IMG/VR virus record: IMGVR_UViG_3300037225_000138
Span: 1 to 64,000 of that record
DNA: 64,000 bases
Source: a virus
Reading direction: 5' to 3' (one strand)
In this document: positions 900-61,598 of the stretch, one piece after another
Layout: every line of letters begins with the position of its first letter
Numbering within the stretch: position 1 is the first letter of the stretch
The notes under the pieces: generated by a model
The model's input: the letters and a program-made list of their open reading frames with translations, nothing else
The model's database searches: none
What the model was told of the DNA's origin: nothing
Translations under genes and position numbers: made by a program

Positions 900-911
900 T
901 ACTTAGAAACC

Positions 912-1598: not shown

Positions 1599-1609
1599 AA
1601 TAAAATATC

Positions 1610-10668: not shown

Positions 10669-10691
10669 TTAAATCTCACGTATCGTCATAC

Positions 10692-10729: not shown

Positions 10730-10758
10730 GAATAGCACAAACAAATATTGTAAAAAGA

Positions 10759-10790
10759 TTTGTTTATAAGCAAAAGTGTTTATATCTTTG
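10759..10790 (+). promoter_or_regulatory. Bacteroidetes-type promoter for the replication block
   Basis: TTTG (10759-10762), a 20-base spacer and TATCTTTG (10783-10790) match the -33/-7 consensus TTTG / TAnnTTTG of the Bacteroidetes primary sigma factor. It lies just past a terminator and 22 bases before the first early gene, with no other gene between. Confidence 0.8.
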
Positions 10791-10812
10791 TTTCGTTAAA
10801 TTTAATTATGAC

Positions 10813-11145
10813 ATGGAAGAACAATACGGATTAATAAAAGGGATTGAGTGTAAATTCGCAAAAACGGAACCTGCACTTATTGATGCGATCTCAAGAAAGA
10901 CAGAGATTGGCATAGAAAGAGTAAAGACGATGATGCGTTATAATGTCTTTACCGTAAGTCAATTTGCTGATCTTACGGGATTGGCTATCTCCACGATCAC
11001 TAATAAGACAAGGCCTTCTATAAACAAGGCCACTGGAGGTCTGGGAACAGAGCTCGATTATTGTTTTCCTTATCCTGATAAGCATAATCCAGGTCCCAAA
11101 TTTATTATTCGGAATGAGAAAGCAGAAGAAATCCTTAAAGGATGA
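10813..11145 (+). CDS. Small helix-turn-helix DNA-binding protein
   Basis: A 110-residue protein. Residues about 47-67 (FTVSQFADLTGLAISTITNK) have the spacing of a helix-turn-helix. It is the first gene after a strong promoter and overlaps the helicase-primase gene by four bases (ATGA), so it may regulate or assist replication. It could equally be a loader or early repressor. The HTH is read by eye; no family is assigned. Confidence 0.6.
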   Translation: MEEQYGLIKGIECKFAKTEPALIDAISRKTEIGIERVKTMMRYNVFTVSQFADLTGLAISTITNKTRPSINKATGGLGTELDYCFPYPDKHNPGPKFIIRNEKAEEILKG

Positions 11146-33696: not shown

Positions 33697-33981
33697 ATGT
33701 TAAAAAAACTCAGGTATTGGTTCTATAACCTTTTCAAACGGAAAACACTTATGGCTACGGAGGTTATAGATGAGTGGACGGTCATTGACTATCATCATCA
33801 GAAGATAAATCTCAGAAAGAGTGAAGTGTTGGCATGGAATGGCTTGTCAAGGTTTGACAAAAGAGCTATGGCTGATCGCTTCAAAAACCTTGAGAAGAAG
33901 AAACTGATTAAGTTTATCGAGATAAATGGCAGGATGACATGTGTGAAAAATCTTAATTACGAAGCAAGGAATGGAAAATAA
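33697..33981 (+). CDS. Small winged-helix-like protein
   Basis: A 94-residue basic protein. Residues 1-15 are basic and hydrophobic (KKLRYWFYNLFKRK); residues about 25-80 (LRKSEVLAWNGLSRFDKRAMADRFKNLEKKKLIKFIEINGRMTCVK) have winged-helix spacing. If translation starts at the in-frame ATG 33730 the basic segment is lost and the promoter spacing is more usual. It overlaps the next gene by 11 bases. Confidence 0.5.
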   Translation: MLKKLRYWFYNLFKRKTLMATEVIDEWTVIDYHHQKINLRKSEVLAWNGLSRFDKRAMADRFKNLEKKKLIKFIEINGRMTCVKNLNYEARNGK

Positions 33982-34672
33982 ACGAACATTTAATAACCAG
34001 GTTTTAATTAAACTCGACCCTGAGAATAAAACTATCCAGACAAAGAGTGGGCTTATATTGTACGTGGATGATACTTTTGAGATGGAGAAGAATATCACTG
34101 TATCGGGTGTGGTATATGGATTGCCGAGTCATCTGTCTTATTGCGGGGAACCGAACAAAGATATGCCATGGGAAACCCCACTTGAATTAAAATACGGTGA
34201 TAAGGTGATTGTTTATTATCTATCGGTCGTCAATGCCTTAAAACCAGAACACCACAGATACTTCATCGAGGGAGTTGATAGATATGTCTTGATAAGTTAT
34301 CAGAGCATCTTCTGTACTTATGGTGATGATTGGGTGAAGCCTATCAATGGTTATGTGTTTGTAGAACCAAGCGAAGACCCCGTTATTCTGACAGAGAAGG
34401 ATAGGATGAGAAAGGCAGGATTAGAATTGGTTGTCTTAAAAACACAGTCAAATACAAACGTGTCCTATGGGAAAGTGAAGTATCTGGGAATACCAAACAG
34501 ACGATACGTGGATTCGGAGTACACTGACGAGGGGGTGGATATTGCCATTGGTGATATTGTGGTGCTTAAAAAAGTTAATGACATACCCGTTCAATATAAT
34601 CTTCACCAGCGAATAAACAACGGGGAATTATTGTGGAGGGTACAGAGGAAAAATATACTTGCAAAGCTATGA
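33971..34672 (+). CDS. Tandem co-chaperonin-like protein
   Basis: A 233-residue protein that reads as two related halves: NNQVLIKLDPENKTIQTKSGLILYVD...KYGDKVIVYYL and NGYVFVEPSEDPVILTEKDRMRKAGLELVVL...AIGDIVVLKK. Each has the order of GroES strands, with the mobile-loop stretch between strands 1 and 2 (TIQTKSGLIL and the corresponding part of the second half). It is twice the size of the GroES-like protein at 16651, so the phage may carry two different co-chaperonins. The gene precedes virion-type genes, which would fit a capsid-folding role. Fold assignment is by eye. Confidence 0.6.
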   Translation: MENKRTFNNQVLIKLDPENKTIQTKSGLILYVDDTFEMEKNITVSGVVYGLPSHLSYCGEPNKDMPWETPLELKYGDKVIVYYLSVVNALKPEHHRYFIEGVDRYVLISYQSIFCTYGDDWVKPINGYVFVEPSEDPVILTEKDRMRKAGLELVVLKTQSNTNVSYGKVKYLGIPNRRYVDSEYTDEGVDIAIGDIVVLKKVNDIPVQYNLHQRINNGELLWRVQRKNILAKL

Positions 34673-34770
34673 TTGAATTGAATAAAATCTATCAGGGTGA
34701 TGCGCTGTCATTACTGAGAACTTTCCCCGAAAAGATTTTCAATACCTGCGAAATAGGATTATTCTTATGA
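34669..34770 (+). pseudogene. DNA methyltransferase N-terminal remnant
   Basis: A 33-codon frame starting MIELNKIYQGDALSLLRTFP. The IYQGDALxxLxxxP start is characteristic of phage-type DNA methyltransferases, where it is followed within about ten residues by the catalytic SPPY; here the frame runs EKIFNTCEIGLFL and stops before it. It is therefore most likely the stump of a deleted gene. Its ATG overlaps the preceding stop. Confidence 0.7.
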
Positions 34771-34802
34771 TCTTACAGTTTCATCAAAAGGAGTATTCTC
34801 AA

Positions 34803-35405
34803 ATGAGATTTGATCCGACAAAATTACCGGAGGGTAGTGATATTTTAAAATTCTACAAGGATCTCGCAAAGGTAAAAGAGTTCAGGCTTAATCCCGGAGA
34901 GGGTATTGACAACAACAAGGTTATGCAATACATCATGTGCATGTATGATGCTCATTCGCCATACAGAACAAAATTTACCGATGTGCTTAAGAGAAAGATA
35001 GAGGTGGCGCACGACTGCCAGTTCTCAGTACAGGATGATGGCACGTTTGAATCAGCAACAGAAGATTTTCTAAAAGGCAAGAATGATGTGGTGAACCGCA
35101 AGATAGTTCAGTATGTCATGCTCCACAAGTCTTATAAATATAGTTATCAAGTGAGCATCGAATCTGCATATTTTGATCTCATGGTGAGCATACAGAAAGA
35201 GGCCGACACCAAATCACTATCTAAACTTGCGGAGTTAAGGGATGAGCTTGAGGAGAACCTTATGGACCTTCTCAGCCAGGACAATAACCCTTTCGTCAGA
35301 GACACTATGTTACGTTATCTTGAGGATGACCGGTTACAGTTGAGGCCGGAGGACATAGCAAGAAAATTACAGAATGGAGAACCACCTATATCAAAATCAA
35401 AATAA
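34803..35405 (+). CDS. Unknown virion/packaging-type protein
   Basis: A 200-residue mostly helical acidic protein, MRFDPTKLPEGSDILKFYKD and so on, with an HKSYKYSYQVSIESAYFDLM segment. ATG 34803 follows AAAAGGAG and gives a start that fits the context; ATG 34767 overlaps the methyltransferase stump. By order in related phages it could be a small packaging protein upstream of the terminase, from which it is now separated by the glycan cassette. No family is proven. Confidence 0.45.
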   Translation: MRFDPTKLPEGSDILKFYKDLAKVKEFRLNPGEGIDNNKVMQYIMCMYDAHSPYRTKFTDVLKRKIEVAHDCQFSVQDDGTFESATEDFLKGKNDVVNRKIVQYVMLHKSYKYSYQVSIESAYFDLMVSIQKEADTKSLSKLAELRDELEENLMDLLSQDNNPFVRDTMLRYLEDDRLQLRPEDIARKLQNGEPPISKSK

Positions 35406-35436: not shown

Positions 35437-35793
35437 GTGGCACAGGTTCGATTACATAATAATGCAAAACGCAACATAAAGGCAGGGGAGCTTGTGCGCA
35501 TAGACCCATCAGATGAGAACTCTTTTCTTATCGCCAAATTAACAGACTTTGGTATCATTGGTAGTGTGGCATCAGATACATTAGCAGGACAGTATTGCTT
35601 AATCAATCTTATAGGGAGCGTTAATTGGGGGGATGTGATAGGTGCCCCGGCATCATCAGGGACCGATTTTGAGACTACGGTTGATTGGAGTGAGATTACC
35701 AACAAGCCGGATTATCTCGGTGCAAAAATAACTTTCAGTCCAACACAACCGGTTAATCCTATTGTAAATGAAATTTGGATTCAAACAAACTAA
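35437..35793 (+). CDS. Small virion-surface-like protein
   Basis: A 118-residue protein starting GTG, with RLHNNAKRNIKAGELVRID and NTL-type beta structure (ITFSPTQPVNPIVNEIWIQT). Beta-rich and Ser/Thr-rich, no enzyme motif, like head-fibre or decoration proteins. TAACTTTG (35411-35418) lies upstream but without a -33 partner. Role inferred. Confidence 0.5.
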   Translation: MAQVRLHNNAKRNIKAGELVRIDPSDENSFLIAKLTDFGIIGSVASDTLAGQYCLINLIGSVNWGDVIGAPASSGTDFETTVDWSEITNKPDYLGAKITFSPTQPVNPIVNEIWIQTN

Positions 35794-35798
35794 ATACT

Positions 35799-36026
35799 AT
35801 GAGCAAGATTGTTATTATCATTGAGGCAGATAAATCGAATGGCATGTTGAAACTTTCCGCACCCCTGGACACGGCACCAGAGAGGCAGGAGGTCATTGAG
35901 ATACTTCAGGGTGCTATCGGCGCAGCAAAGAACTACAAGGGAGTAGGGCTTCTTATTGCAAATAACGCATTGGTAACGCCAATGGCACAGGATAAAATCA
36001 ATCATCAAACAAGTATAAAACTTTAA
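35799..36026 (+). CDS. Small unknown protein
   Basis: A 75-residue protein (MSKIVIIIEADKSNGMLKLS...), a beta strand followed by helices with EVIEILQGAIGAAKNYKGVGLL. ATG 35799 gives the usual start; the frame is open to 35775 inside the preceding gene. No family recognised. It lies between two virion-like genes. Confidence 0.45.
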   Translation: MSKIVIIIEADKSNGMLKLSAPLDTAPERQEVIEILQGAIGAAKNYKGVGLLIANNALVTPMAQDKINHQTSIKL

Positions 36027-36039
36027 GGAGGAACATAAA

Positions 36040-36471
36040 ATGGCAATTTATTCAATCTCGCAAAGGACAATCAACACCACTGCTGCAACATGCGCATGGG
36101 AGATTATCAGTACATCAGCACAGGTAAGACCAGCAATTCTTGAGTTCGGACTTACCCAAGTCACCGCAGTTGCGGCAACGCTTGGTTTAGGAAGACCACA
36201 AGCTAAAGGTGTTACGCCCACTACACCACAGATATCACTTGCGGAGGACTATAACGAGGTAACGGGCAACACAACAGTTGCAGTAGCATGGGGTACTCCG
36301 CCAACCGTACCCACAAACTTCTTCCGAAGGATTACATGCCCGGCGACAATCGGTGCAGGAGTGATCTGGACGTTCCCAAGAGGATTGATAATACAGTCAA
36401 ACTTTAGTATTATCCTCTGGGTTATAGCCACAGCACCAGTACTTGACGTGTACGCTGTGACTAACGAGTAA
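36040..36471 (+). CDS. Virion decoration-like beta protein
   Basis: A 143-residue protein, beta-rich, Thr/Ala/Val-rich, ending FPRGLIIQSNFSIILWVIATAPVLDVYAVTNE, a C-terminal strand pattern I recall from capsid or fibre-associated phage proteins. It is preceded by a full Shine-Dalgarno AAGGAGG (36025-36031), unusual in Bacteroidetes and consistent with high expression. Confidence 0.55.
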   Translation: MAIYSISQRTINTTAATCAWEIISTSAQVRPAILEFGLTQVTAVAATLGLGRPQAKGVTPTTPQISLAEDYNEVTGNTTVAVAWGTPPTVPTNFFRRITCPATIGAGVIWTFPRGLIIQSNFSIILWVIATAPVLDVYAVTNE

Positions 36472-36482
36472 CAAGTAAGGCC

Positions 36483-36959
36483 ATGAGCTTACTTGCATAT
36501 TTACAGAACCCCTTTACGGGTATCCTGAAGGATGACTCTGCGGTACGTCCTGATGCTGTCTATAAGCATATTGAGGTAAACAGATGGGATTCAATAGGTG
36601 CTCATTTATGGACAAAATCAGGATTCCTTGGAGCACTAGATTCGGGTCCGTCATTTAATCCATGTTATTCAGACGAAGACAGATGGGAATGGCCTGAGAT
36701 TGACAATCCTAAGTACGGAGGTCGTCAGAATGTCGTTTACAGGATTCAGGGGATAACCGAAGACTCAAATGGGAGTCCCCTTGGAAACTGTGTGGTTAAA
36801 CTATTCCGTGCAGCAGATGACTCAAAGCAAGACCAGTGTACCTCCGATGCTGCAGGAAACTATATCCTCTGGACTCCATTCACGGACGCACATTATTGCG
36901 TGATGTTCTTAGACCCAAGTCTTGCAGGAGCCACAATCCGCACATTAACTCCAGTTTAA
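36483..36959 (+). CDS. Virion-like protein with carboxypeptidase-regulatory-like domain
   Basis: A 158-residue protein. The second half (YRIQGITEDSNGSPLGNCVVKLFRAADDSKQDQCTSDAAGNYILW) matches the small Ig-like/carboxypeptidase regulatory domain (a G..D..G.PL.....V.L.......T...G.Y.). It would form a beta-sandwich on a virion surface. It shares the TAATG overlap with the next gene. Confidence 0.55.
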   Translation: MSLLAYLQNPFTGILKDDSAVRPDAVYKHIEVNRWDSIGAHLWTKSGFLGALDSGPSFNPCYSDEDRWEWPEIDNPKYGGRQNVVYRIQGITEDSNGSPLGNCVVKLFRAADDSKQDQCTSDAAGNYILWTPFTDAHYCVMFLDPSLAGATIRTLTPV

Positions 36960-37306
36960 TGGCATCAAGTCAACTCTATACTCCCGACAATCCGGTTGTA
37001 GCGCAGTCAGGCAGTGCGTCACAGCCATCAGTCGGGCAATTATACACTAAGGAGGCGACACCATCCAATGCTCGCCTCTTCAATGTTTCGGCAGGCACAC
37101 CATCAACAATAACAAGTATTAATAGATATGGAATAAGGGGTCGTGTTGTTGTGAATGACACACCTCCAATACCTCCAATCCCAATCAGTGTGATATTATC
37201 ATATTTGTATGCAGGACAGGTTACACCGATGCCGGCAGGGAGTAAGATGAAGTATTGGGATGGATTACAATGGCAGGACATTGATACAACAGTTGTATTT
37301 CAATAA
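36959..37306 (+). CDS. Small Thr/Ser/Pro-rich virion-like protein
   Basis: A 115-residue protein, MASSQLYTPDNPVVAQSGSA and further, with Pro-rich TPPIPPIPIS and a Trp-rich C-terminus (MKYWDGLQWQDI). ATG 36959 overlaps the preceding stop. It has no enzyme motif and immediately precedes the glycan cassette. Its many Ser/Thr make it a possible glycan acceptor; inference only. Confidence 0.45.
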   Translation: MASSQLYTPDNPVVAQSGSASQPSVGQLYTKEATPSNARLFNVSAGTPSTITSINRYGIRGRVVVNDTPPIPPIPISVILSYLYAGQVTPMPAGSKMKYWDGLQWQDIDTTVVFQ

Positions 37307-37311
37307 AGCAG

Positions 37312-37935
37312 ATGAAGATTAAGATTTTCGTTCATATTTGGGCTATCAATCACTGGTATACCGTATTCACAGAGCAGATGCGCATATTACTCACATCAGG
37401 ACTTTATGATGCGTGTGAGGAAATAAGCATCAGCCTCATCAGCAGTCCGGCAGAGAGGTATTTATTCGAGATGTACTTTGTAGATTGTTATTCAAAGATA
37501 AAGTTCAAAGTATGGTCAGAGCAACCCGGCAACTATGAATTTCCGGCACTCAGGCTTATAGAGGCAGACGATTCGCAATATGCAGGATTGTATTTTCATG
37601 TGAAAGGAGTAACAAGACCCTTTGAAACCGTGATCCAGCACTGGAGGTCAACACTTAATGAGGCAATTTTAAATCAATGGCAGACGCATTATCAGAATAT
37701 CCTCAATGGCTATGACGTGTCATCGGTAAATTTCAGGCAGAGCCCAGATCATTTCTCAGGTAACTTCTGGTGGTTCAATCGTGAGTATATCAAAAGGCTA
37801 CCTCCGGTGAATGGGCTCGACCTAACGAACAGATGGCACGCAGAACAGTACATTTGCATGGCACAGGGTAAGTTTTGGTATCCTCCATTCATAGAGCCTG
37901 GAGATAATCTTTTTCAAATGCAATATAGGCCATGA
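37312..37935 (+). CDS. Glycosyltransferase-like protein
   Basis: A 207-residue protein with HFSGNFWWFNREYIKRLPPV near residues 142-161 and NRWHAEQYI shortly after, a pattern of Bacteroidetes glycan-cluster transferases in which the acceptor-site aromatic residues are conserved. It opens the main glycan cassette and overlaps the epimerase gene by four bases. Donor unknown. Confidence 0.55.
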   Translation: MKIKIFVHIWAINHWYTVFTEQMRILLTSGLYDACEEISISLISSPAERYLFEMYFVDCYSKIKFKVWSEQPGNYEFPALRLIEADDSQYAGLYFHVKGVTRPFETVIQHWRSTLNEAILNQWQTHYQNILNGYDVSSVNFRQSPDHFSGNFWWFNREYIKRLPPVNGLDLTNRWHAEQYICMAQGKFWYPPFIEPGDNLFQMQYRP

Positions 37936-38999
37936 AGGTAATTTCCCTTACAGGCACCCGTCCTGAGATCATAAGGCTCTCAGTAATTCTTAATAAACTC
38001 GATGATTTGGTAGATCATATCCATGTCTTCACCCGTCAGAATTTTGACACAAACCTAAGCGACATATTTTTCAAAGAACTTATGGTTCGTAAACCGGATT
38101 ATATTTTTGAGAAAGCAAACTCACTTGGAGATTTTCTTGGTAAAGGGTTTGAATATTTTGAGCACATCCTCAATAAAGAAAGACCGGATAAGATTTTAAT
38201 ACTTGGAGATACCAACTCGGTGATATTTGGAATCCTTGCAGCGAAGCGAGGCATACCCATTTATCACATGGAGGCAGGGAGCAGGTGTCTGGATAATGAT
38301 GTGCCAGAGGAAACAAACCGGAGGCTCATTGATGTAATGGCTGCTTGTAACATGCCATACACGGAAAACTCGAAAGAGAATCTTATCAGGGAAGGACACG
38401 ATAAGAACCATGTGTTCAAGATAGGCAATCCTATCCTCGAGGTATTGCAGTATTATGCTGACGACATAAATGGAAGTACCATTATGGACAGGCTTGGCAT
38501 ATTTGCAACTAAGTATGCTCTATTGACATTTCATCGCACAGAGAACGTGGATAATCCAGAGAGAGCAAAGAATGTAGTAGATGCGATAAATGAGATTTCA
38601 AAAAAATTACCCGTGGTATTTCCCATGCATCCAAGAACAAAAGATCAATTATTTAAGCATGGATTACTCTTTTCGGATGGAGTGATAGTCACTGAACCTA
38701 TTGGATTCTTTGATTGCGTAAAACTTGAGAAACATGCCAAGGTAGTTTTCACAGACAGTGGCACCATCCCGGAGGAGACATCATTATTTCATGTGCCCAC
38801 GATTGTCCTGAGAAGAACCATTGAGAGGCAAGAACTTATAGAAAATGGGTCTATCATACTCGCAGGGACAGATAAGAAGGATATTCTGAGGGCTTATAAT
38901 GCTATTGGAGACATGAAACAGAAGTGGCCGGTGCTAGAAGATTACTACAAAGAGAATGTGTCGGATACAGTAATAAGAATTTTAATAGGAAGTATATGA
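37932..38999 (+). CDS. UDP-GlcNAc 2-epimerase family enzyme (WecB/CapG-like)
   Basis: A 355-residue enzyme, the family's usual length. TGTRPEIIRLSVIL at the start, HMEAGSRCLDNDVPEETNRRLID, LLTFHRTENVD, FPMHPRT and FTDSGTIPEE are the motifs of non-hydrolysing UDP-N-acetylglucosamine 2-epimerases. With the dehydratase (43546) and reductase (45301) it can complete the last step to UDP-L-FucNAc, or act at C-2 towards UDP-L-QuiNAc; alternatively it makes UDP-ManNAc. It overlaps both neighbours by four bases. Confidence 0.8.
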   Translation: MKVISLTGTRPEIIRLSVILNKLDDLVDHIHVFTRQNFDTNLSDIFFKELMVRKPDYIFEKANSLGDFLGKGFEYFEHILNKERPDKILILGDTNSVIFGILAAKRGIPIYHMEAGSRCLDNDVPEETNRRLIDVMAACNMPYTENSKENLIREGHDKNHVFKIGNPILEVLQYYADDINGSTIMDRLGIFATKYALLTFHRTENVDNPERAKNVVDAINEISKKLPVVFPMHPRTKDQLFKHGLLFSDGVIVTEPIGFFDCVKLEKHAKVVFTDSGTIPEETSLFHVPTIVLRRTIERQELIENGSIILAGTDKKDILRAYNAIGDMKQKWPVLEDYYKENVSDTVIRILIGSI

Positions 39000-39619
39000 G
39001 AATATCTGTTATCATGGCAGTAAACTTGGGTTACTATGATGTTGGCTTTACACATAGCGCATCAGACCCTACAATAAGATTTCGTCACGCAGTAGAATCA
39101 TTCCGGAAACAACACTTCAAAGATGCGGAACTTCTCATTGTCTCCGATGGATGCAAGGTGTCGGAAGCGATCTATTACGATAGTTATTTCGGTGATCCGT
39201 CAATGCGATTCAGGTATATTGATAAGCAGGAAGTCTTTAGCGGTGTGCCGAGGAACACTGGCCTGCTAATGGCAAAGGGCGACATAATATGCTATCTTGA
39301 CCACGATGATGCCTTTGGCCCAAATCATTTGCAAATCATCAACGATAATTTCGACACAGAGAAGAATGATTGGGTGTGGTATAATGATTATGTCGTTGAC
39401 ACCATACTCGCTGAGAAGGTAGAGAGAAACGTGTTCCCTGCCCTCAATGTGATAGGAACAAGTGCAATTGCTCATAAGAGAAACGTAGGTGTCGTTTGGG
39501 AGGGGGAATACGCACATGACTGGCGCATGATTGAGAAATGCTTATTACCATTGCCAGGAATGAAGATACCCACGCCGGAATATTATGTCTGTCATTTCAG
39601 AAGAATCGAGGACTTATGA
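38996..39619 (+). CDS. Family 2-type glycosyltransferase
   Basis: A 207-residue protein: MRISVIMAVNL at the start, RHAVESFRKQHFKDAELLIVSDGCK and NTGLLMAKGDIICYLDHDDAF. The last contains the DxD-type metal site; together these are the GT2 core of a GT-A fold. It is short for GT2, so it may hold only the catalytic core. ATG 38996 overlaps the epimerase stop; the frame is open further upstream. Confidence 0.75.
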   Translation: MRISVIMAVNLGYYDVGFTHSASDPTIRFRHAVESFRKQHFKDAELLIVSDGCKVSEAIYYDSYFGDPSMRFRYIDKQEVFSGVPRNTGLLMAKGDIICYLDHDDAFGPNHLQIINDNFDTEKNDWVWYNDYVVDTILAEKVERNVFPALNVIGTSAIAHKRNVGVVWEGEYAHDWRMIEKCLLPLPGMKIPTPEYYVCHFRRIEDL

Positions 39620-40260
39620 TTAAAGCACTCATCATAAATTACAATAGAATTTCACTTCCGGTGGCGATGGCAACATGGCTTTCGCAAAGGCAATGTGAGC
39701 CGATATTTGTGGACAACAATTCCGATTATCCTCCTTTACTCGAATACTACAAGACCTGCCCATTTGAAGTGATTAAGATGGATGCTAATTATGTTCAGAC
39801 GGTTATCTGGCATAAGAATATATTGTCTCAGTTAGGGATAAAAGGAAATTACATAGTCACCGACCCCGACCTTGACCTGTCAGGAGTTCCGGATGATTTT
39901 GTAGAGGTGATGGAGGAGGGACTGAGGCGCTACCCTCAGTATGACAAATGCGGTCTATCGCTTGAGATAAATGACATCCCAGATCAGGTGACTATTGATT
40001 GGGAGATGCAATTCTGGCAGCGGCCACTCGATCCGCAATATTTTCATGCCGATATTGATACTACATTTGCGTTATATAAGCATCCATATCCTTCACTCAA
40101 TGCCATCAGGACAAACAGACCATATACAGTTCGCCATGTGCCATGGTATTACATGTTGTATGATAGGCTACCTGCAGACGAGATGTATTACTACAGGACT
40201 CAATGCAAAGAGATAAAGGCACACTCTAACATACTTGATAGAAAAATATGGTTACAATAG
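39616..40260 (+). CDS. Glycosyltransferase-like protein (GT-A type)
   Basis: A 214-residue protein: KALIINYNRISLPVAMATWLSQ, PIFVDNNSDYPPLLEYY and YIVTDPDLDLSGVP. The strand, the DNNS and the TDPDLD site match GT-A enzymes of Bacteroidetes glycan clusters. ATG 39616 overlaps the preceding stop; the open frame to 39538 overlaps a coding region and is not preferred. Donor unknown. Confidence 0.6.
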   Translation: MIKALIINYNRISLPVAMATWLSQRQCEPIFVDNNSDYPPLLEYYKTCPFEVIKMDANYVQTVIWHKNILSQLGIKGNYIVTDPDLDLSGVPDDFVEVMEEGLRRYPQYDKCGLSLEINDIPDQVTIDWEMQFWQRPLDPQYFHADIDTTFALYKHPYPSLNAIRTNRPYTVRHVPWYYMLYDRLPADEMYYYRTQCKEIKAHSNILDRKIWLQ

Positions 40261-41006
40261 TCATCACATACTACCAAAGACAGGCGCAGTTAAATAAAAC
40301 ACTGCAATCATTCATGCAATATGATCCAAAAGATTTTAATATCGTGATTGTTGATGATGCAAGTCCTGATGAGGTTAAGATACCACATTTTACAGACTTT
40401 AAGATTGATGTCATTCGTATAACAAACAAGGCATGGAAGAACGCATCAATTCCATTTAATATCGGGTTCAATAAGGCACTTGAAAAGAATCCTAATATTA
40501 TCATCATCCAGAATGCGGAGAGTTGTCACATGGGTGATATCCTTGCGTATGCCAAGACCGTGACAGACGAGAATTATATTTCTTTCCCTTGTTATTCTCA
40601 GGGTAAGGGAGAAGCACCGGGATCGGCGATGAATCATAAATGCGCCACCTTTGAAGGCGAGAGTGCTTGGTATAATCATCCTTTTCATAATCCGCGATAC
40701 TATCATTTCTGTTCCGCGATAACGACAAATAATCTTATCAAGTTGAATGGATTTGATGAGAGGTTCGCAGATGGATTTGCATACGATGACGATTATTTTG
40801 TTCATCAGATAAGATGCCTCAAACTGAGGATAGACTTACCTGGAGAACCGTTTGTTGTTCATCAATGGCATTATGATAACTTCTCAGCACCAAATGGAGG
40901 CGAACTTTGTGCAAACAATAAAGCAGTATATGACAGATTAGTCCCTGAGAATAATTACAGAGCTCAACATCACATAACACCAGACTTGCAATGGAATCAG
41001 AAATAG
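40248..41006 (+). CDS. Family 2-type glycosyltransferase
   Basis: A 252-residue protein starting MVTIVITYYQRQAQLNKTLQSF, then NIVIVDDASPDE, IPFNIGFNKALEKNPNIIIIQNAESCHMGD and LNGFDERFADGFAYDDDYFV. These are the nucleotide-sugar-binding and acceptor-side motifs of GT2 enzymes. It overlaps its neighbours by 13 and 16 bases. Confidence 0.75.
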   Translation: MVTIVITYYQRQAQLNKTLQSFMQYDPKDFNIVIVDDASPDEVKIPHFTDFKIDVIRITNKAWKNASIPFNIGFNKALEKNPNIIIIQNAESCHMGDILAYAKTVTDENYISFPCYSQGKGEAPGSAMNHKCATFEGESAWYNHPFHNPRYYHFCSAITTNNLIKLNGFDERFADGFAYDDDYFVHQIRCLKLRIDLPGEPFVVHQWHYDNFSAPNGGELCANNKAVYDRLVPENNYRAQHHITPDLQWNQK

Positions 41007-42247
41007 TAATAATCGGTGCCGGAGTTACCGGACTTGCTGCAGGAATGTTATTGCAGGATAAGGCTGTTATCTTGGAGAAGGATGACCGGCCGGGAGGCAT
41101 TGTGAAGTCATTTCAATTTGATGATGGTTATTGGTTCGATAATGTAGTTCATCTGTTTCACATCAGGAATGAGAATACGTTTGATTGGGCCCATGCTTTA
41201 TTGGGTGACGTACTCAGGCCGTGTCCTCCGGTTGGATATGTGGAGACAAAGGAGGGTATGACGCGCTATCCTATTCAATCGAATATTAATCAACTGAACG
41301 AGGCTGCAGCAGAAGCATGTTGGGCAGGACTACAAGACGCACATCCAAACAGACAATCATCTTCATATAGAGAGTTCTTGTTAAATACTTTTGGGCAGGC
41401 ACTTTGCGACATTTTCTTTTTCCCCTACAATGAGAAGTGTTGGAAATATCCTTTGGGCGATATGACAAGCGAAGGTCAGACATGGAATATCAATAAACCC
41501 TTTGATGCAGGAAAGACTTATAATGCTGAAGGCTATTATCCCATGCCACACAAGCGGGCCCCATTTAGAGGCATGGAGATATTACCAAGGGAGATGGCAA
41601 AGAAAGTATCCCGATTAGAATTAGATTGTGAAGTGACTTCTATTGACATGCAAAAACACGAAGTTCGTACAAGTGAAGGATTGTTCCGCTATGATTTAGA
41701 ATGCCTGTCAACGATCCCTTTACCCTATCTGGCTCAATTATGTGATATTCCAAGGAGTCTTAAAAGCGACATCAGTAAGCTAAGATGGAATAAAGTGATC
41801 TCAGTAGGCATAACCATACAGGGCGAGAGGCCAAGGAACACAGGACACTGGCATTATTATGCACAACCGGAATTTCCTTTTTCAAAACTAATATACATGA
41901 CGGAGTTCGATGAGTATAATGCTCCGGCTGATGGATTCGGCATATTGGCCGAGATACCCGAGATGGCAAATGACCGTTCATTCTCCGTACAGCGATTACT
42001 ACCCTCATTACAGAAACTTAATATCCTCAATAGTAAAAACAGATTATTGGGCATGCATGTATGGGAGGTAAATCCGGCTTATGTGGTGTTCACAAAAGAA
42101 ACACCATCCATTGTGGATAACTGCATCGAATATTTTGATAAATTTGGCATCAGGTTACTTGGCAGATATGGTAACTGGGAATATTCATCCATGGCAGAGA
42201 ACATAGAGTCAGGATTCAATTACGCATCAAAAATTATAAAGAGATGA
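40991..42247 (+). CDS. FAD-dependent oxidoreductase / UDP-galactopyranose-mutase-like protein
   Basis: A 418-residue protein. IVIIGAGVTGLAAGMLL at residues 5-21 is the GxGxxG dinucleotide-binding motif and EKDDRPGGIVKSF the following FAD loop. Residues about 130-185 (REFLLNTFGQALCDIFFFPYNEKCWKYPLGDMT) resemble UGM- and protoporphyrinogen-oxidase-like proteins of polysaccharide clusters. It may convert a sugar ring form or oxidise an intermediate; the UGM-specific residues were not verified. It overlaps the next gene by four bases. Confidence 0.65.
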   Translation: MESEIVIIGAGVTGLAAGMLLQDKAVILEKDDRPGGIVKSFQFDDGYWFDNVVHLFHIRNENTFDWAHALLGDVLRPCPPVGYVETKEGMTRYPIQSNINQLNEAAAEACWAGLQDAHPNRQSSSYREFLLNTFGQALCDIFFFPYNEKCWKYPLGDMTSEGQTWNINKPFDAGKTYNAEGYYPMPHKRAPFRGMEILPREMAKKVSRLELDCEVTSIDMQKHEVRTSEGLFRYDLECLSTIPLPYLAQLCDIPRSLKSDISKLRWNKVISVGITIQGERPRNTGHWHYYAQPEFPFSKLIYMTEFDEYNAPADGFGILAEIPEMANDRSFSVQRLLPSLQKLNILNSKNRLLGMHVWEVNPAYVVFTKETPSIVDNCIEYFDKFGIRLLGRYGNWEYSSMAENIESGFNYASKIIKR

Positions 42248-43071
42248 TATACCTATCACCAGAGAACCGATCAGCATTCGGAGATGAGACATTCTGGGTG
42301 TGGTTTGAAAGAAACTTTCCAAACACATCATACATACTGCCTCAATGGTATGGAGAGACTGATGTAGTTCTCCGATATTCAACCCTTGGTGCGATATTCT
42401 GCAAACCCGGAAAGTCAATAGCAATGTGTTGGGAGCTTCTACCAGAGATGAAGAAAGTCTTTGGTTTGGATGCTTGGGATGCTAAGATTCAGGCTACATT
42501 CGAGACAGCAGTAAGTTCAGATAGGATAGTTATTGCCTCTGAGTTCTCAAGGCCATATTATGAACCTTATGGCAAGGTTGATTATCTGCCTCTTGGTGTA
42601 GATACGGACTTATTCAGACCTTACTCAGTGGAAGAAAAATATGATCTAAGAAGAAAGTATGGAGTGCCACTAAATATGGAAGTAGGCTTCTGGTGCGGGA
42701 CAACACACCCGATGAAAGGATACCAGAACCTTGTCCGGTATGCAAGGGAGAACCCGAATATCTATTGGATACTTGTATGGTACTCACCGCAAGGCGAACT
42801 GCTGCCAAACTCACAGAACCACGGGGTCGTCACTCAGCAGGTATTGTCCGAACTGATGAATTGTGCAGACTTTCAGTTAGGAGTAAGCCTTTTGAGACCC
42901 TATTACGTGGTTGAATATGAAGGCATGGCATGTAACCTCAAACAACGTAAGATAACCGGATTGGAGAAAGATTTTGAGGGAGGTGATAATCCCAGAGATG
43001 TTATCTTTGAGAAACAATGGGACAGGCACACCTGCAAGACACTGTATGAAAATTATATTAAAAACTTATGA
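42244..43071 (+). CDS. Glycosyltransferase (GT4/GT-B-like)
   Basis: A 275-residue protein with SEFSRPYYEPYG, DYLPLGVDTDLFRPY and FWCGTTHPMKGYQNLV. The L(P/G)LGVDTxxFxP and 'GT..PMKGY' segments are hallmarks of GT4-type transferases, here within a shorter than usual protein (usual length about 350-400), lacking the E-x7-E at the expected position. It sits between the flavoprotein and methyltransferase genes with four-base overlaps. Confidence 0.65.
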   Translation: MIYLSPENRSAFGDETFWVWFERNFPNTSYILPQWYGETDVVLRYSTLGAIFCKPGKSIAMCWELLPEMKKVFGLDAWDAKIQATFETAVSSDRIVIASEFSRPYYEPYGKVDYLPLGVDTDLFRPYSVEEKYDLRRKYGVPLNMEVGFWCGTTHPMKGYQNLVRYARENPNIYWILVWYSPQGELLPNSQNHGVVTQQVLSELMNCADFQLGVSLLRPYYVVEYEGMACNLKQRKITGLEKDFEGGDNPRDVIFEKQWDRHTCKTLYENYIKNL

Positions 43072-43541
43072 ATCTTAATCTAGGAAGCGGAGAACGCAAC
43101 AGGGAAGGCTACGTCAATATTGATGCAGTCAAACGGACAGAGGAAACAATTGTCGGAGATATTCTTCATTTAGAATATGCCGATGGCTCTATTGATAAGA
43201 TATTCAGTGAGCATGTTATTGAACATTTTAATCGGGTAGATTTGGATAGATTTTTCAGCGAGTGTCGCAGGATGCTGAAGCAAGGAGGCGAGATAGAATT
43301 TATTGCACCTTGTATTAAAACATGGATACAGAGATATGTGCGTGGTGAGATAGATATAGTTCATCTGGACTTATTTCTCTATGGCCCTCAATTACACCCA
43401 TACGATTTTCATAGGGGAGGTATTTTTAATGAGATGCTGGAATATCTTTGTAACAGGCATGGATTTGAGATTGTGGAGTTGCATTATCAGGACAGAATAC
43501 ATAGCGTGTGGGAGGTTTATCTGAGAGCAATTAAAAAATAA
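43068..43541 (+). CDS. SAM-dependent methyltransferase
   Basis: A 157-residue protein: NLNLGSGERNREGYVNIDA (motif I region LGSG), DGSIDKIFSEHVIEHF and ECRRMLKQGGEIEFIAPC. This is a class I methyltransferase of the predicted SAM-methyltransferase type found in glycan clusters. It may cap or decorate a glycan, or act on protein. It lies between the GT4-like and dehydratase genes. Confidence 0.75.
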   Translation: MNLNLGSGERNREGYVNIDAVKRTEETIVGDILHLEYADGSIDKIFSEHVIEHFNRVDLDRFFSECRRMLKQGGEIEFIAPCIKTWIQRYVRGEIDIVHLDLFLYGPQLHPYDFHRGGIFNEMLEYLCNRHGFEIVELHYQDRIHSVWEVYLRAIKK

Positions 43542-43545
43542 AAAT

Positions 43546-44535
43546 ATGTTCACTGACAAAACCCTATTGATAACAGGAGGTACCGGTTCATTCGGGAATG
43601 CTGTTTTAAAGCGATTTCTGACATCCGGCATTAAAGAGATTCGGATATTCAGTCGTGACGAGAAGAAGCAGGATGATATGCGCCAGGCATACAGGAACGA
43701 TAAGATCAAGTATTACATCGGGGACGTGCGGGACTATGAGAGCCTCCGTAATGCAACTAAGGGTGTTGACTTTATCTTTCATGCTGCAGCTTTGAAACAG
43801 GTACCCTCATGTGAGTTCTTCCCCATAGAGGCTGTACGGACAAATGTTTTGGGCTGTGCCAATGTGCTTAATGCAGCCATTGAGAATGGAGTGAAGAAGG
43901 TAATAGTACTAAGTACCGACAAGGCAGTATATCCTATCAATGCCATGGGCTTAACCAAAGCCCTCAGTGAAAAGACTATGATTGCCATATCACGCGATCT
44001 GATTAATACAAACACGGTATTCTGTGGAACAAGATATGGTAATGTCATGGGATCGAGAGGATCCGTCATACCTCTTTTTGCAGATCAGATAAAAAGCGGA
44101 AGCGAGATAACCATAACCGATCCAAACATGACAAGGTTTATGATGTCACTTGATGATGCAGTTAATCTTGTACTCTATGCATTCCTTAATGGCAAGCAGG
44201 GAGATATATTTGTTCAGAAGTCACCGGCTGCTACAATTGAGATGATAGCAAATGCGCTCATGGTCATCCTTGATAAAAAAGTCTCAATTAAAATTATTGG
44301 AACACGTCATGGGGAGAAATTGCATGAGACACTTGTTAATAGGGAGGAGATGGTTAAGTCGGAAGACTTGGGAGAGTATTTCTGTATTCCTGCAGATAAT
44401 CGTGATCTGAATTATGGCAAATATACTCATGTAGGGGAAGCACGCATAGCACAGATGGAGGAATATACTTCCAATAACACGCACCGATTGACTCTTGAGG
44501 AGACAATAGTTCTGCTGAAAACACTCAATCTATGA
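43546..44535 (+). CDS. UDP-GlcNAc 4,6-dehydratase (inverting, CapE/WbjB/PseB-like)
   Basis: A 329-residue enzyme with GGTGSFG at 11-17 (Rossmann NAD-binding), HAAALKQVPSCE and NAMGLTKALSEK at about 131-142. The active-site sequence Met-x-x-x-Lys in place of Tyr-x-x-x-Lys is typical of inverting 4,6-dehydratases; HAAALKxVP is also characteristic. It converts UDP-GlcNAc to the 4-keto-6-deoxy-L sugar. It is the first step of UDP-L-FucNAc/L-RhaNAc biosynthesis; the remaining steps are at 45301 and 37932. Confidence 0.85.
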   Translation: MFTDKTLLITGGTGSFGNAVLKRFLTSGIKEIRIFSRDEKKQDDMRQAYRNDKIKYYIGDVRDYESLRNATKGVDFIFHAAALKQVPSCEFFPIEAVRTNVLGCANVLNAAIENGVKKVIVLSTDKAVYPINAMGLTKALSEKTMIAISRDLINTNTVFCGTRYGNVMGSRGSVIPLFADQIKSGSEITITDPNMTRFMMSLDDAVNLVLYAFLNGKQGDIFVQKSPAATIEMIANALMVILDKKVSIKIIGTRHGEKLHETLVNREEMVKSEDLGEYFCIPADNRDLNYGKYTHVGEARIAQMEEYTSNNTHRLTLEETIVLLKTLNL

Positions 44536-45299
44536 ATGAGAAAGTTTCAATAATATGTCTCATCTACCAATCACCGGAGTATGCGGAATACCTGTATGAT
44601 AACATCATGGCATATACACCGGAGATAGAATCAGGAGAAGCAGAGTTTTTCTTTGTTGCCAATGATGCCACGGAGGAAGTGCTGAATTTTTTAAAAGCAC
44701 AGAACTATCCGCATCATGTGAACAATAATCCTCATTATACCAATGAGGAACTATTTGCAAGAGGATATTCATTCCCGGAATATATGGCAAGGGTTTATAT
44801 GGGATATAACTTTGGGATGCGTGTAGCTAAGAACCCGATACTGATGCTTGTGAGTAGTGACAACTGTTTCTCAGTAGGCTGGCTTCAGAATCTTAAAAAG
44901 AGGCTTACTATGGCAAATGTCGTTTCGCCAAGAATTGTGCAGCCGACATACACCTTTCCTAATCCCATAAATCACACGGAATGTGAAGTGATTGATTTTG
45001 GGGCAGGGATAGACAGTTTTAAGGAATGTCCCTTCACAGATTGGGCTTTTGCAAATAAGATTGATAGTGAATCTATGGGTAATGCTTTTATGCCTCTGAT
45101 GATACATAAGAACAACGCGGAGGCAATAGGCTATTATCCGGAAGGCAATCTTCATAATGGCAGTTTTCAATGGATGTTAAGGACGGGAGACACGGAGTTT
45201 TATCTGAAACTCGCAGAGAAAGGGATAAAGCATATCACATCCAATGACTCTATTGTGTATCATTTTGATCAAGGAGAGAGATTACTAAAAAAGGAATAA
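44532..45299 (+). CDS. Glycosyltransferase-like protein (GT2-like)
   Basis: A 255-residue protein: MNEKVSIICLIYQSPEYAEYLYDNI, EFFFVANDATEEVLNFL, ARVYMGYNFGMRVAKNPILMLVSSDNCFSVGWLQNL and DTEFYLKLAEKG. These are GT2-type motifs with an SSDN site in place of DxD. It overlaps the dehydratase gene by four bases. Donor unknown. Confidence 0.65.
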   Translation: MNEKVSIICLIYQSPEYAEYLYDNIMAYTPEIESGEAEFFFVANDATEEVLNFLKAQNYPHHVNNNPHYTNEELFARGYSFPEYMARVYMGYNFGMRVAKNPILMLVSSDNCFSVGWLQNLKKRLTMANVVSPRIVQPTYTFPNPINHTECEVIDFGAGIDSFKECPFTDWAFANKIDSESMGNAFMPLMIHKNNAEAIGYYPEGNLHNGSFQWMLRTGDTEFYLKLAEKGIKHITSNDSIVYHFDQGERLLKKE

Positions 45300-45300
45300 T

Positions 45301-46095
45301 ATGAAAATATTTATCTTCGGAGCAAATGGCATGTTGGGCACATACCTACATAAGTATTTTGAAGGTTCTGTCCCCGTAACCAGGAAAGAAGTTGATGCGC
45401 TGATTATTCAGTATGAATGTTTCCATTCGCAATTAACCAACCTGGCTATAAAGAAAGGAGATGTGATAATAAATGCAACAGGGATCATCAATAAAAGAAA
45501 TGAATCACCCCTGGATTTCATAACGGTCAATGCTCTTTTCCCACGATTACTTGCAGACTATTGTGAGAAACGTGGGATTAAATTAATACATGTGTCCACA
45601 GATTGCGTGTTTGATGGCAATAAGGGTGATTATACTGAAGATGATTTATCTGATGACACAAGTGTTTATGGCATGTCTAAGGCAGCAGGGGAGCCTCTTA
45701 ACTGTACGGTGATAAGGGCGTCCATAATAGGAGAAAATAAGAATAACAGCAAAGACCTTCTTGAATGGGTAAGGACTCATCATAACACGACAATAGAAGG
45801 ATGGACGAATCATCTTTGGAACGGTATCACCTGTTTACAACTTGCCAAGATATGTGAGTGGGTTATGGCAAACAACTATTTATGGAGAGGGACAAGACAT
45901 TTTTTTTCTCCTTCACCAATAAGCAAGGCCGATCTGGTGGAGATGATAAGTGATATATATGAATTGAATAATAAGATTAAAAAGATAGAGGGCCCTTCTG
46001 ATTGTGACAGGACACTGGATTCAATTTATGCCAGTGAGATTTTCATACCTGATCTGAAAACACAAATCATAGAACAGAAAAATTTTGAACTCTAA
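45301..46095 (+). CDS. RmlD/CapF-like 4-ketosugar reductase
   Basis: A 264-residue protein with IFGANGMLG at residues 5-13, HVSTDCVFDG, and YGMSK near 122-126, the catalytic YxxxK of short-chain reductases. RmlD-type enzymes reduce 4-keto-6-deoxy sugars. CapF is usually about 370 residues with a cupin domain; this one lacks it, so it is closer in size to WbvR/RmlD-type reductases, which favours the L-RhaNAc/L-QuiNAc branch over L-FucNAc, though not decisively. It ends on the terminase start (TAATG). Confidence 0.75.
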   Translation: MKIFIFGANGMLGTYLHKYFEGSVPVTRKEVDALIIQYECFHSQLTNLAIKKGDVIINATGIINKRNESPLDFITVNALFPRLLADYCEKRGIKLIHVSTDCVFDGNKGDYTEDDLSDDTSVYGMSKAAGEPLNCTVIRASIIGENKNNSKDLLEWVRTHHNTTIEGWTNHLWNGITCLQLAKICEWVMANNYLWRGTRHFFSPSPISKADLVEMISDIYELNNKIKKIEGPSDCDRTLDSIYASEIFIPDLKTQIIEQKNFEL

Positions 46096-48338
46096 TGAAT
46101 CATCTCGCATTACTCAAACGCTATTACAAGGAAGTTGACCCTCAGATACTCGCACAGTATCAGGATGCGCCTAAAAGCGTATGGGTTAATACGGACGATA
46201 AAGACCTTATCCCAATAGAGATTGATCTTCCTGAACCCCCAGAACTACATCTGATAGATAATTGGGGATTACCCGCAGAGGAACAGATGTGGCACCCTCC
46301 CAAACTGTCAAGGAAATTAAAAGAATTACAGTCCAAATATGAAACACTGGATGAGATATGGGAGGAGTTGGAGAACAATAAAGACATTTACGGAGATGAG
46401 ATTAAGTTCATCAAACAGCAATGGGAACGCAGGCTGCATGGTTATTGGTTCTGGAATAATGGTGTCCCTACATATATGGATGGATGGCATTATTTCTATT
46501 GCGGATGGTGGAAGATTGATACTGGATTACCAGAATATCGTGACCGGGATAGTAAGTTTTTCTTGTTTGCCAGGAAGATTTATACGGAGACCAAATATCC
46601 AAAATGTAATAAAGAGGGTTATGCGATAAAGGATTCAAAGGGTAATTATGAATGGATAGAGACAGGACACCGGCTATTTTACGGATTCAACTATCCCAAA
46701 CACAGACGTGAAGGAGCAACGTATAAGGCTGAATGTATCAATTATGAGATCATAAGTCGGACGATAGGAGCATGGGGTGGTATTCAGTCCATGAATGACG
46801 TGCAAGCTCGTAAATGCTTCTTAAAACATCTTGTGGGGCCATGGAAACAATTACCATTCTTCTTTAAGCCGAATTATGAAGGTTCTACGTCCCCGAAAAC
46901 AGAATTATCATTCACTCCTCCGGCAATAAGGCTTTCATCTAAGGGTGCACTTTCAAGTTCAGAACTAGGACTGGAATCTAAGATAGATTATGAGATGGCT
47001 GACCCGTCTGCCTATGATGGCGATAAACTTTATTTTCACCATGACGATGAGGTGGGAAAACTGAAGAAAGGATTGGATTGCTGGACACGTCATGCGGTTG
47101 TCAGGGAGTGTCTGTCAATAGGGGGTAGTATAATAGGCTTCACAATAAAAACCTCAACGGTAGGCGAGATGGAAAAAGGTGGAGGGAAGGCATTTAAGGA
47201 ACAGTGCCAGCTAAGTGATTATTATAAACGAAATCTTAATGGGCAAACAGAGTCAGGACTTGCGACATTATTCATGCCTGCTGATGAAGGGTTAGAGGAG
47301 TTTATTGATCCTTATGGAATGAGTATTGTCGGAACACCAAACAAGAAACAGGCAGAGTTCATTAAAAGGAAAATAGGAGCAAGAGAATATCTCTTAAATG
47401 AGAGGGCGAGTCTTGTGAATGATCAGAATAAACTATCTGAGAGGATAAGATTATTCCCCCTAAAATTTACCGAATGTTTCAGGACCTCATCTAAGTCATC
47501 AGGGTTTAATATGAATAAGTTGGAGACTTATATTGACAATTTAAGGCTATCAAAACAGGCAATAGTTCGAGGGAATTTTGTCTGGGCAGATGGCAAGCGC
47601 GATACTAAAGTAGAGTTTAAAGAAAATCCACAGGGCAAATTTTTAGTAAGCCATCAATTGAATGTTAATGAATCGAACCTCAAGTTTTGGGATGAAAGCG
47701 AGGAATCATGGATGCCGGGTAACTCTCATTGGGGATGTGCAGGAGGAGACCCGTTTAAATTCAATATTGTCAAAAGCAATAGAAAATCTAACGGAGGTGG
47801 TGCAGTAGTGCGCAAGGGGAAGATTAAGGATGGCGATTTCACGATGAAGCGTAAGTTTGTCTGTACTTATAATTTCAGAACCTATGATAAGGATATTTAC
47901 GCAGAGGACATGCTTGTGATGTGTGTCTATTATGGAGTGCAGATGTTTCCCGAGATAAACGTACCCCTACTTTGGGATTACTTCATAAAAAGGAGATATG
48001 GAGGATTCTTGAGATATAGAGTTGACCCGAGAACCTTTGAATTTAGCAAGACCCCTGGCGAACAAACAGGAGAGAAGATCAAACAGTCTATCTTTACGGA
48101 ATGGGATTCATGGATTGAGAACGAGGCTGATCAGGAGACGCATATTGAGGTATTGGAGGAGTGTAGGGATATTGACGGACCGGAAGACATGACTAATTAT
48201 GACCTATTTACAGCAGGCGGCTATGCCCTTCTTGGGACGCTCGACATCTATGATGAGGTGGAGATTCTGAACGAGAAGGAGTACACCCTTGATAATTATT
48301 TGAGTAAAAAAACATATAGTCCCGTAAAAAATTATTAA
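46095..48338 (+). CDS. terL: Terminase large subunit
   Basis: A 747-residue protein. The first 200 residues hold GVPTYMDGWHYFYCGWWKID. The ATPase includes GFNYPKHRREGATYKAE in a Walker-A-like place and KLYFHHDDEVGKLK (Walker B with catalytic Glu) near 312-325. The nuclease half has GCAGGDPFKFN near 552. It packages DNA into procapsids. It is longer than most TerL, as is common in Bacteroidetes phages. It overlaps the last glycan gene by one base and precedes the portal by 22 bases. Confidence 0.85.
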   Translation: MNHLALLKRYYKEVDPQILAQYQDAPKSVWVNTDDKDLIPIEIDLPEPPELHLIDNWGLPAEEQMWHPPKLSRKLKELQSKYETLDEIWEELENNKDIYGDEIKFIKQQWERRLHGYWFWNNGVPTYMDGWHYFYCGWWKIDTGLPEYRDRDSKFFLFARKIYTETKYPKCNKEGYAIKDSKGNYEWIETGHRLFYGFNYPKHRREGATYKAECINYEIISRTIGAWGGIQSMNDVQARKCFLKHLVGPWKQLPFFFKPNYEGSTSPKTELSFTPPAIRLSSKGALSSSELGLESKIDYEMADPSAYDGDKLYFHHDDEVGKLKKGLDCWTRHAVVRECLSIGGSIIGFTIKTSTVGEMEKGGGKAFKEQCQLSDYYKRNLNGQTESGLATLFMPADEGLEEFIDPYGMSIVGTPNKKQAEFIKRKIGAREYLLNERASLVNDQNKLSERIRLFPLKFTECFRTSSKSSGFNMNKLETYIDNLRLSKQAIVRGNFVWADGKRDTKVEFKENPQGKFLVSHQLNVNESNLKFWDESEESWMPGNSHWGCAGGDPFKFNIVKSNRKSNGGGAVVRKGKIKDGDFTMKRKFVCTYNFRTYDKDIYAEDMLVMCVYYGVQMFPEINVPLLWDYFIKRRYGGFLRYRVDPRTFEFSKTPGEQTGEKIKQSIFTEWDSWIENEADQETHIEVLEECRDIDGPEDMTNYDLFTAGGYALLGTLDIYDEVEILNEKEYTLDNYLSKKTYSPVKNY

Positions 48339-61530: not shown

Positions 61531-61598
61531 AAAATCAATCTGGCATATATCAAATGAAAAAGGCGATAATTAATCAGGAGGCTTCGCTGTGCAACTGA
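61527..61598 (+). CDS. Possible 23-residue coupling peptide
   Basis: MKNQSGIYQMKKAIINQEAS and three more residues. The ATG overlaps the stop of the connector gene (ATGA), and its stop lies just past the start of the FISUMP gene. It contains the Shine-Dalgarno of the next gene, so its translation could open or block it. Confidence 0.3.
   Translation: MKNQSGIYQMKKAIINQEASLCN

Follow-up and report, generated by a model that had tools for sequence, protein, structure and literature searches.

A variable sugar-gene slot beside terL and a predicted L-RhaNAc/L-QuiNAc donor pathway in a probable Pachyviridae-like phage

The DNA analysed here, called the window, is 64.0 kb of the 67,415-base virus record IMGVR_UViG_3300037225_000138, which may be a fragment. 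At 37312-46095 it carries a cassette of eleven plus-strand genes (A to K), mostly overlapping, that leads into the packaging gene terL. We read the cassette as one of several alleles at a glycan locus whose contents are exchanged; it would make a donor of N-acetyl-L-rhamnosamine or N-acetyl-L-quinovosamine (L-RhaNAc/L-QuiNAc), with a virion protein as the likely acceptor. We give this reading a probability of about 0.55. A polymorphic glycan locus is suggested because the slot between terL and an upstream gene, X, recurs in related phages with its contents exchanged. The donor is assigned from enzyme family and operon type, and two observations make a virion protein the most likely acceptor: the coupling of the genes to terL, and a search of the record that brought up no part for a lipid carrier, a flippase or a polymerase. 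Phage particles are usually pictured as bare protein. If our reading is true, some phages would vary a glycan coat, by exchanging sugar pathways at a fixed slot, much as bacteria vary their O-antigens.

Donor enzymes and the predicted sugar

An earlier, sequence-only reading of this stretch had proposed ten consecutive, mostly four-base-overlapping genes that end on the terL start codon. The cassette is real and its position and content were correctly given, as was its coupling to terL; the genes are consecutive and mostly overlapping but number eleven. Overlaps occur at nine of the eleven junctions, counting K/terL: 4 bases at six of them (A/B, B/C, C/D, F/G, G/H, I/J), 13 bases at D/E, 16 bases at E/F, and the single base that the stop codon of K shares with the start codon of terL. 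The remaining two are gaps of 1 base (J/K) and 4 bases (H/I). None of genes A-K has an internal stop. Seven of the genes belong to sugar-type or tailoring families; that so many stand together, all in one direction and mostly overlapping, is in our judgement far beyond chance.

Three of the genes fit one donor pathway, as the sequence-only reading had it. Gene I (43546..44535) encodes a predicted FnlA/CapE-type UDP-N-acetylglucosamine (UDP-GlcNAc) 4,6-dehydratase/5-epimerase. It scored 529 bits against TIGR04130 (FnlA) over 1-327, short of the 730 bits that NCBIfam sets as its equivalog cut-off, and 332 bits against PseB, and its best full-length matches among PDB sequences were 4j2o (479 bits) and CapE (456 bits). 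Assignment to the PseB type was ruled out by the profile and PDB scores. The product keeps the STDK...NAMG..K stretch (STDKAVYPINAMGLTK, aligned with CapE STDKAAYPINAMGISK), which we take to be catalytic in role. Gene B (37932..38999) encodes a predicted non-hydrolysing UDP-sugar 2-epimerase (PF02350, 281 bits; TIGR00236, 232 bits against a cut-off of 210). Proposed earlier as WecB/CapG-like, it is nearer CapG than WecB: the closest PDB chain is CapG 7ya2 (280 bits), whereas 1vgv, a classical UDP-GlcNAc 2-epimerase, scored 110 bits.

The choice of sugar turns on gene K (45301..46095; PF04321, E 1.2e-21), whose 264-residue product is a putative 4-keto reductase of the RmlD type without a cupin. 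We compared it with the reductases of the best 80 bacterial FnlA loci among the matches listed, some of them on incomplete contigs. A CapF-type gene was present in 58 loci together with CapG and in two without it; a short RmlD-type reductase (285-295 residues) was present in ten with CapG and in one alone; nine loci had neither reductase, two of these nine having CapG. Gene K matched all 11 short FnlA-linked reductases and only two of the 60 CapF-type proteins, and it has STDCVF and Yxx(S/T)K as do all 11; its identity to bacterial short reductases is 28-33%. Of 88 control loci, 62 have the CapF cupin, whereas none of the 11 short-reductase loci does; a search of the window, which stops 3.4 kb before the end of the record, did not find it (best E 0.39). 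The earlier description of an RmlD/CapF-like reductase thus holds for RmlD and fails for CapF.

Because K matches the RmlD-type class and the window lacks the cupin, L-RhaNAc/L-QuiNAc is favoured over N-acetyl-L-fucosamine (L-FucNAc), the other sugar that the sequence-only reading had allowed. The likely product, judged from these protein families, is UDP-L-RhaNAc and then UDP-L-QuiNAc, not UDP-L-FucNAc. In the proposed route, I would convert UDP-GlcNAc to a 4-keto-6-deoxy-L-arabino intermediate, K would reduce this with C3 epimerisation to UDP-L-RhaNAc, and B would epimerise the latter at C2 to UDP-L-QuiNAc.

We found eight other viral contigs with an I-type gene, of which five have a K-type neighbour, two a CapF-type gene and one neither. 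A search with K found five viral contigs, and FnlA is present in each. L008 (IMGVR_UViG_3300005663_000753; L-numbers label the compared loci and contigs) is the sole K-type contig that showed a 2-epimerase within the stretch examined, so that all three enzymes are there. Matches to I and B in phage records labelled Staphylococcus, Listeria and Salmonella look, in our judgement, like host DNA and were excluded from the count of phage trios. The same L008 contig, whose tail-type genes were recognised by eye, carries at 25-11823 a phosphoenolpyruvate mutase match (243 bits, cut-off 320) along with the FnlA/K/2-epimerase trio and two matches that score far under their cut-offs, a phosphonopyruvate decarboxylase half and an Fe-alcohol dehydrogenase of the phosphonate type; this may be a phage cluster for a phosphonate together with a deoxyaminosugar. 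In LR745206.1, a 635-kb uncultured phage genome, FnlA-like (38%) and K-like (47%) genes lie 5 kb apart (430154-436805).

The other genes of the cassette would build and modify the glycan. Of the "five to six glycosyltransferases" of the sequence-only reading, two are supported by Pfam: C (38996..39619; PF00535, Glycos_transf_2, E 3.8e-10) and E (40248..41006; PF00535, E 2.4e-7), both of the GT2 family. Gene A (37312..37935) is probably a third, as judged from its predicted GT-A fold (AlphaFold pLDDT 86). The model gave VIA Z-scores of 12-14 to heparosan synthase, GtrB and ArnC, and its better viral fold matches include proteins named glycosyltransferase, while its profile had no match among PDB sequences up to E 10. 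GlmU nucleotidyltransferases reached Z about 12, and GlmU and RmlA score close behind the glycosyltransferases; nucleotidyltransferases share the GT-A type, so the fold alone is insufficient to prove a transferase. The remaining three calls are weak. Gene D (39616..40260), a possible GT-A glycosyltransferase, had no match in the Pfam search and was linked by profile with an L061 protein of the GT2 family (E 2.9e-4); G (42244..43071), possibly GT4-like, matched NCBIfam NF053787 at E 0.0019 and PDB 3c4q at E 0.11; and J (44532..45299), possibly GT2-like, had a Pfam E of 0.16 and a fold model of pLDDT 39, which was set aside as unusable.

The flavoprotein and the methyltransferase of the sequence-only reading were recovered as F and H. 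Gene F (40991..42247) is of the UDP-galactopyranose mutase (UGM) family by PDB sequence search, over most of its length (4dsg, 72 bits, residues 4-398). In Pfam it matched amine-oxidase/NAD_binding_8, and the UGM-specific domain was absent among matches at E 0.01. It is possibly a pyranose/furanose mutase that makes a furanose donor. Gene H (43068..43541) encodes a small S-adenosylmethionine methyltransferase (Methyltransf_11, E 2e-11). A profile search among 3268 open reading frames for relatives of G, J and F found none. As we picture it, F might supply the furanose form of a UDP-sugar, a short glycan would be assembled by soluble transferases (C and E, probably A, and perhaps D, G and J), and H might add a methyl group to it.

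The slot between X and terL in related phages

A TerL profile yielded 80 related viral loci among the matches listed, and 61 of the 80 were used to compare the slot. Gene X (34767..35405, plus strand), the conserved left border of the slot, was found in 48 of the 61 loci, and its distance to terL was measured in 40. In 22 of these, X abuts terL (gap -17 to +91), in 17 the slot is filled with 3.1-8.6 kb, and in one it holds 959 bases. In the eight X loci that were not measured (seven with X at 22-24% identity, and L065), the end of X lies no more than about 180 bases from terL, and none has a cassette. Thirteen of the 61 showed no X; eight of these were inspected, and in seven terL is preceded by a match to a cassette gene. 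Every filled locus has a TerL at least 70% identical to that of the window (70-84%). The slot is filled in 17 of the 21 loci at or above 70%, whereas in 18 of the 19 below 70% it is empty, with X abutting terL.

After removal of five near-identical copies, the 17 filled loci gave 12 distinct cassettes besides that of the window. Adding the window and the incomplete L020 cassette gives 115 proteins in 49 clusters. Gene A is the most widely shared cassette gene (10 of 12), and the remaining shared clusters each occur in few cassettes. Flanks and slot were compared in 14 chosen loci. Between the window and L017, the borders and core are well conserved (GroES-like protein 62%, X 77%, TerL 84%, portal 77%, virion protein 82%), whereas inside the slot only two genes match, A at 49% and a dehydratase, distantly, at 37%. 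By analogy, the slot looks like an exchangeable glycan locus resembling an O-antigen locus without recognised membrane parts. Cassette-type genes can also occupy a second site: in L036, where X abuts terL, an A-type gene and two others of cassette type (69-1976) precede the GroES-like gene.

Cassette kinship does not track TerL kinship, since L020, with a TerL 76% identical to that of the window, has C, D, E and K in common with it at 55-70%, yet L017, at 84%, has none of the four. In L020, F and J survive as a fusion of 25 residues from the end of F with 42 from the end of J; G, H and I are gone and K is intact. Between the window and L020, second codon positions are the least different in C, D, E and K; this substitution pattern shows that the four genes are apparently under constraint.

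Most of the other cassettes would imply, by their gene families, a chemistry unlike that of the window. The dehydratases of L010 and L022, and by cluster that of L018, are nearer PseB than FnlA, below cut-off. A half-length DegT-type aminotransferase occurs in L018 and L032 and by cluster in L022 and L037, a hexapeptide acyltransferase in L022 and L032 and by cluster in L037, and a C-methyltransferase in L035 and by cluster in L052 and L061. The L035 cassette also has RmlD. In L032 (1438-10004), a ketoacyl-ACP (acyl carrier protein)-synthase-III-like protein, a short-chain dehydrogenase/reductase (SDR), the half-length DegT aminotransferase and the hexapeptide acyltransferase may together make, perhaps, an unusual N-acyl sugar. 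L041 encodes at 6347-7555 a B12-binding radical-SAM protein whose best profile, far below cut-off, is a PhpK-type P-methyltransferase subfamily. Thirty hand-chosen proteins of the 115, one of them the K of L020, were searched against Pfam: 19 were sugar or tailoring proteins (the SDR, ketoacyl synthase and radical-SAM proteins being classed as tailoring by judgement), one was DUF707, two were of homing-endonuclease types, three were weak and five unmatched.

The sequence-only reading had asked whether related phages keep the cassette in the same place, and had held that relatives lacking any of the three donor enzymes would refute its proposal. Such relatives exist: the 2-epimerase family was found in none of ten TerL-related records (some of which may be fragments), and the cassettes at the site differ. 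Yet the slot recurs with exchanged contents. We tentatively suggest, at less than even odds, that the site is a kind of "serotype" locus, where the lineage swaps whole rare-sugar programmes and coats its own particles with the result. If so, near-identical capsids would bear different bacterial-looking sugars, perhaps masking the virion or tuning adsorption or recognition. With 12 other cassettes beside a well-conserved capsid and packaging core, the idea of a coat is directly testable.

Acceptor of the glycan and rival explanations

The sequence-only reading had proposed glycosylation of either the virion or the host surface. We favour the virion, and presume that one of its proteins receives the glycan in the cytoplasm at a late stage of infection. 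The candidate acceptors would be the Ser/Thr-rich small proteins encoded from 36040 and 36959, or the capsid protein. The main alternative is that the cassette alters the O-antigen or capsule of the host to block superinfection, through the lipid carrier and flippase of the host. FnlA and CapG with a CapF-type or RmlD-type reductase are common in bacterial loci, and phage sugar clusters, including those of cyanophages and pelagimyophages, are interpreted in this way in the portions of PMC7824862 and PMC7029224 consulted. Against it stands, besides the coupling to a packaging gene, the search for membrane parts. The 67-kb record had no match to GtrA, WecA/MraY, Polysacc_synt, Polysacc_synt_C, Bac_transf or Wzy_C (PF04138, PF14667, PF01943, PF00953, PF02397, PF04932), families that each match in 6-13 of 14 control genomes, although PF14667 does so above cut-off in only three. 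The flippase plus lipid-carrier transferase that mark GtrABC-type seroconversion or a Wzx/Wzy system were accordingly not found in this record, possibly a fragment. One simple hydropathy scan pointed to no membrane helix in the cassette, flagging in A-K the flavin adenine dinucleotide (FAD)-binding strand of F alone, and four of the 115 proteins overall. We consider host-surface modification unlikely, while giving it real weight. Transfer of the sugars to phage DNA, as a base hypermodification that evades restriction, is highly improbable. Hypermodification usually needs one or two transferases, a number well exceeded by eleven genes with a donor pathway. The record has no thymidylate-synthase-family gene; other base-modifying families were not searched. 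In favour of it are the coupling to terL, part of the packaging motor, and the DNA glucosylation of T-even phages, as described in the part of PMC9614988 seen.

A different donor would be compatible with either acceptor. If K acted as CapF, the trio would make UDP-L-FucNAc by the CapE/CapF/CapG route. CapG is the closest PDB chain to gene B, and in an 89-row tree gene I pairs with two Bacteroidales sequences (support 99/97) and nests among FnlA genes of FucNAc-type Bacteroidales operons; the bootstrap of this tree was not settled and the phage branches are long, and it was used for the placement of the window alone. CapF-type genes also stand in place of the K-type on the I-type viral contigs L003 and L004. 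With K in the short RmlD-type class and no CapF cupin in the window, we hold this donor to be quite unlikely. Still less likely is that the slot is a neutral landing site and the cassettes transferable cargo of little use to the phage. The remnants of F and J and the loss of G-I in L020 would fit this, as would slot-resident endonuclease genes: a GIY-YIG/NUMOD3 gene in L061 (1296-2201), with which a gene of L073 (4706-5461) clusters, and an HNH-like gene, below cut-off, in L035 (6511-7143). These genes are possible agents of cassette exchange. An in-frame stop also splits the homologue of D in L026 (1591-2217). However, by our own classing sugar and tailoring proteins far outnumber homing endonucleases among the sampled representatives (19 against 2 of 30), the genes common with L020 show a purifying pattern, and A is retained in 10 of the 12 cassettes.

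Several points weigh against the virion-coating, L-RhaNAc/L-QuiNAc reading beyond the published host-surface interpretations, the position of gene I in the tree and the CapF-type genes of L003 and L004. A pattern scan of viral contigs for a close relative of gene B found none, and the 2-epimerase family was present in one of 12 other records searched, that of L008. L020 has K without G, H and I beside it, so that the trio seems separable, although the contig begins inside the slot. At its identity to bacterial reductases, K could differ in specificity. Among the transferases, the fold of A is also that of nucleotidyltransferases, and G and J are near or below threshold. The acceptor stands at the level of candidates, the record may be a fragment, and a host flippase could serve the phage.

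Comparison with known systems and surroundings of the cassette

The nearest viral parallel is Megavirus chilensis, whose Mg534/Mg535/Mg536 (UDP-L-Rha2NAc/UDP-L-Qui2NAc) are the same three enzyme types as I, K and B, virus-encoded and accompanied by transferases. As given in the sections of PMC10117803 consulted, they are a 323-residue 4,6-dehydratase/5-epimerase, a 270-residue reductase and a 370-residue 2-epimerase, the first two validated and Mg536 predicted, and L-RhaNAc/L-QuiNAc-type sugars occur on the virion fibrils. Megavirus is a giant virus of amoebae, whereas the trio of the window lies in a phage terL operon, and gene I is far nearer FnlA/CapE (4j2o, 479 bits) than 4tqg, the Mg534 structure (178 bits). 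Bacterial UDP-L-RhaNAc/L-QuiNAc operons of the WbvB/WbvR/WbvD type have FnlA, a short RmlD-type reductase and CapG adjoining, as in Vibrio mimicus (L169); they differ in being bacterial and in a reductase only distantly identical to K. From the CapE/CapF/CapG (FnlA/B/C) system for UDP-L-FucNAc, the window has close counterparts of CapE and CapG, without CapF and its cupin. The best viral fold matches of A include a 638-residue protein, the length of chlorovirus PBCV-1 A064R, whose domains act on capsid glycan. To judge from its length, this match may be A064R, and we treat it as a lead only.

Full donor pathways, called rare in phages by the sequence-only reading, are less so than stated. Jumbo cyanophages (P-SSM2 and others) have clusters of sugar-making enzymes and transferases that are polymorphic among kin, as here, according to the parts of PMC7824862 and PMC3037559 consulted; these phages are large and T4-like, and their clusters lie near tRNAs, hli03 or phoH rather than in an X/terL slot. 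The use of the cyanophage sugar genes was left open in the consulted part of PMC3037559. Virus-encoded rare-sugar pathways (in giant viruses) and polymorphic phage sugar clusters (in cyanophages) are therefore already known. Keyword searches of the open-access literature found no paper on an X/terL slot or on an L-QuiNAc pathway in a tailed phage; as far as these searches go, the trio in a small podovirus, the fixed terL-coupled slot and the replacement of entire donor chemistries among close relatives appear to be new. The short FnlA-partner reductase, the phage UGM-family protein and the B12-radical-SAM tailoring enzyme are candidate rare-sugar enzymes.

The right border of the slot, terL (46095..48338, plus strand; PHROG 6681, 250 bits), is followed by the genes for the portal and a virion structural protein. 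The best matches of TerL among phage records are 27-31% identical and include Manatee Spring podovirus, Maribacter phage Panino, Cellulophaga phage phi19:3 (Pachyviridae) and Flavobacterium phages. From these sequence relations, the phage is probably a Pachyviridae-like podovirus with a Bacteroidota host, the host being suggested by the TerL kin among phages and the Bacteroidales kinship of gene I. On the 5' side lie the GroES-like gene Y (33971..34672; PHROG 3188, co-chaperonin GroES, E 3.5e-5), present at 42-62% identity in 11 of the 14 loci compared, then X, for which no PHROG match was found, and five small genes (35437..37306; starts 35437, 35775, 36040, 36483 and 36959), all on the plus strand. 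The five were unmatched at E 1e-5 in the 14 loci. The product from 36483 has a sub-threshold match to CarboxypepD_reg, and those from 36040 and 36959 contain 20% Ser/Thr against a median of 10%, a richness equalled by the product from 30872, outside the slot. Beyond the core on the 3' side, relatives also differ from 54787 onward; the virion-region proteins there include one with a weak GH43 domain (54787-56748), a possible tailspike enzyme, and one with Fib_succ_major and leucine-rich repeats (61589-63196).

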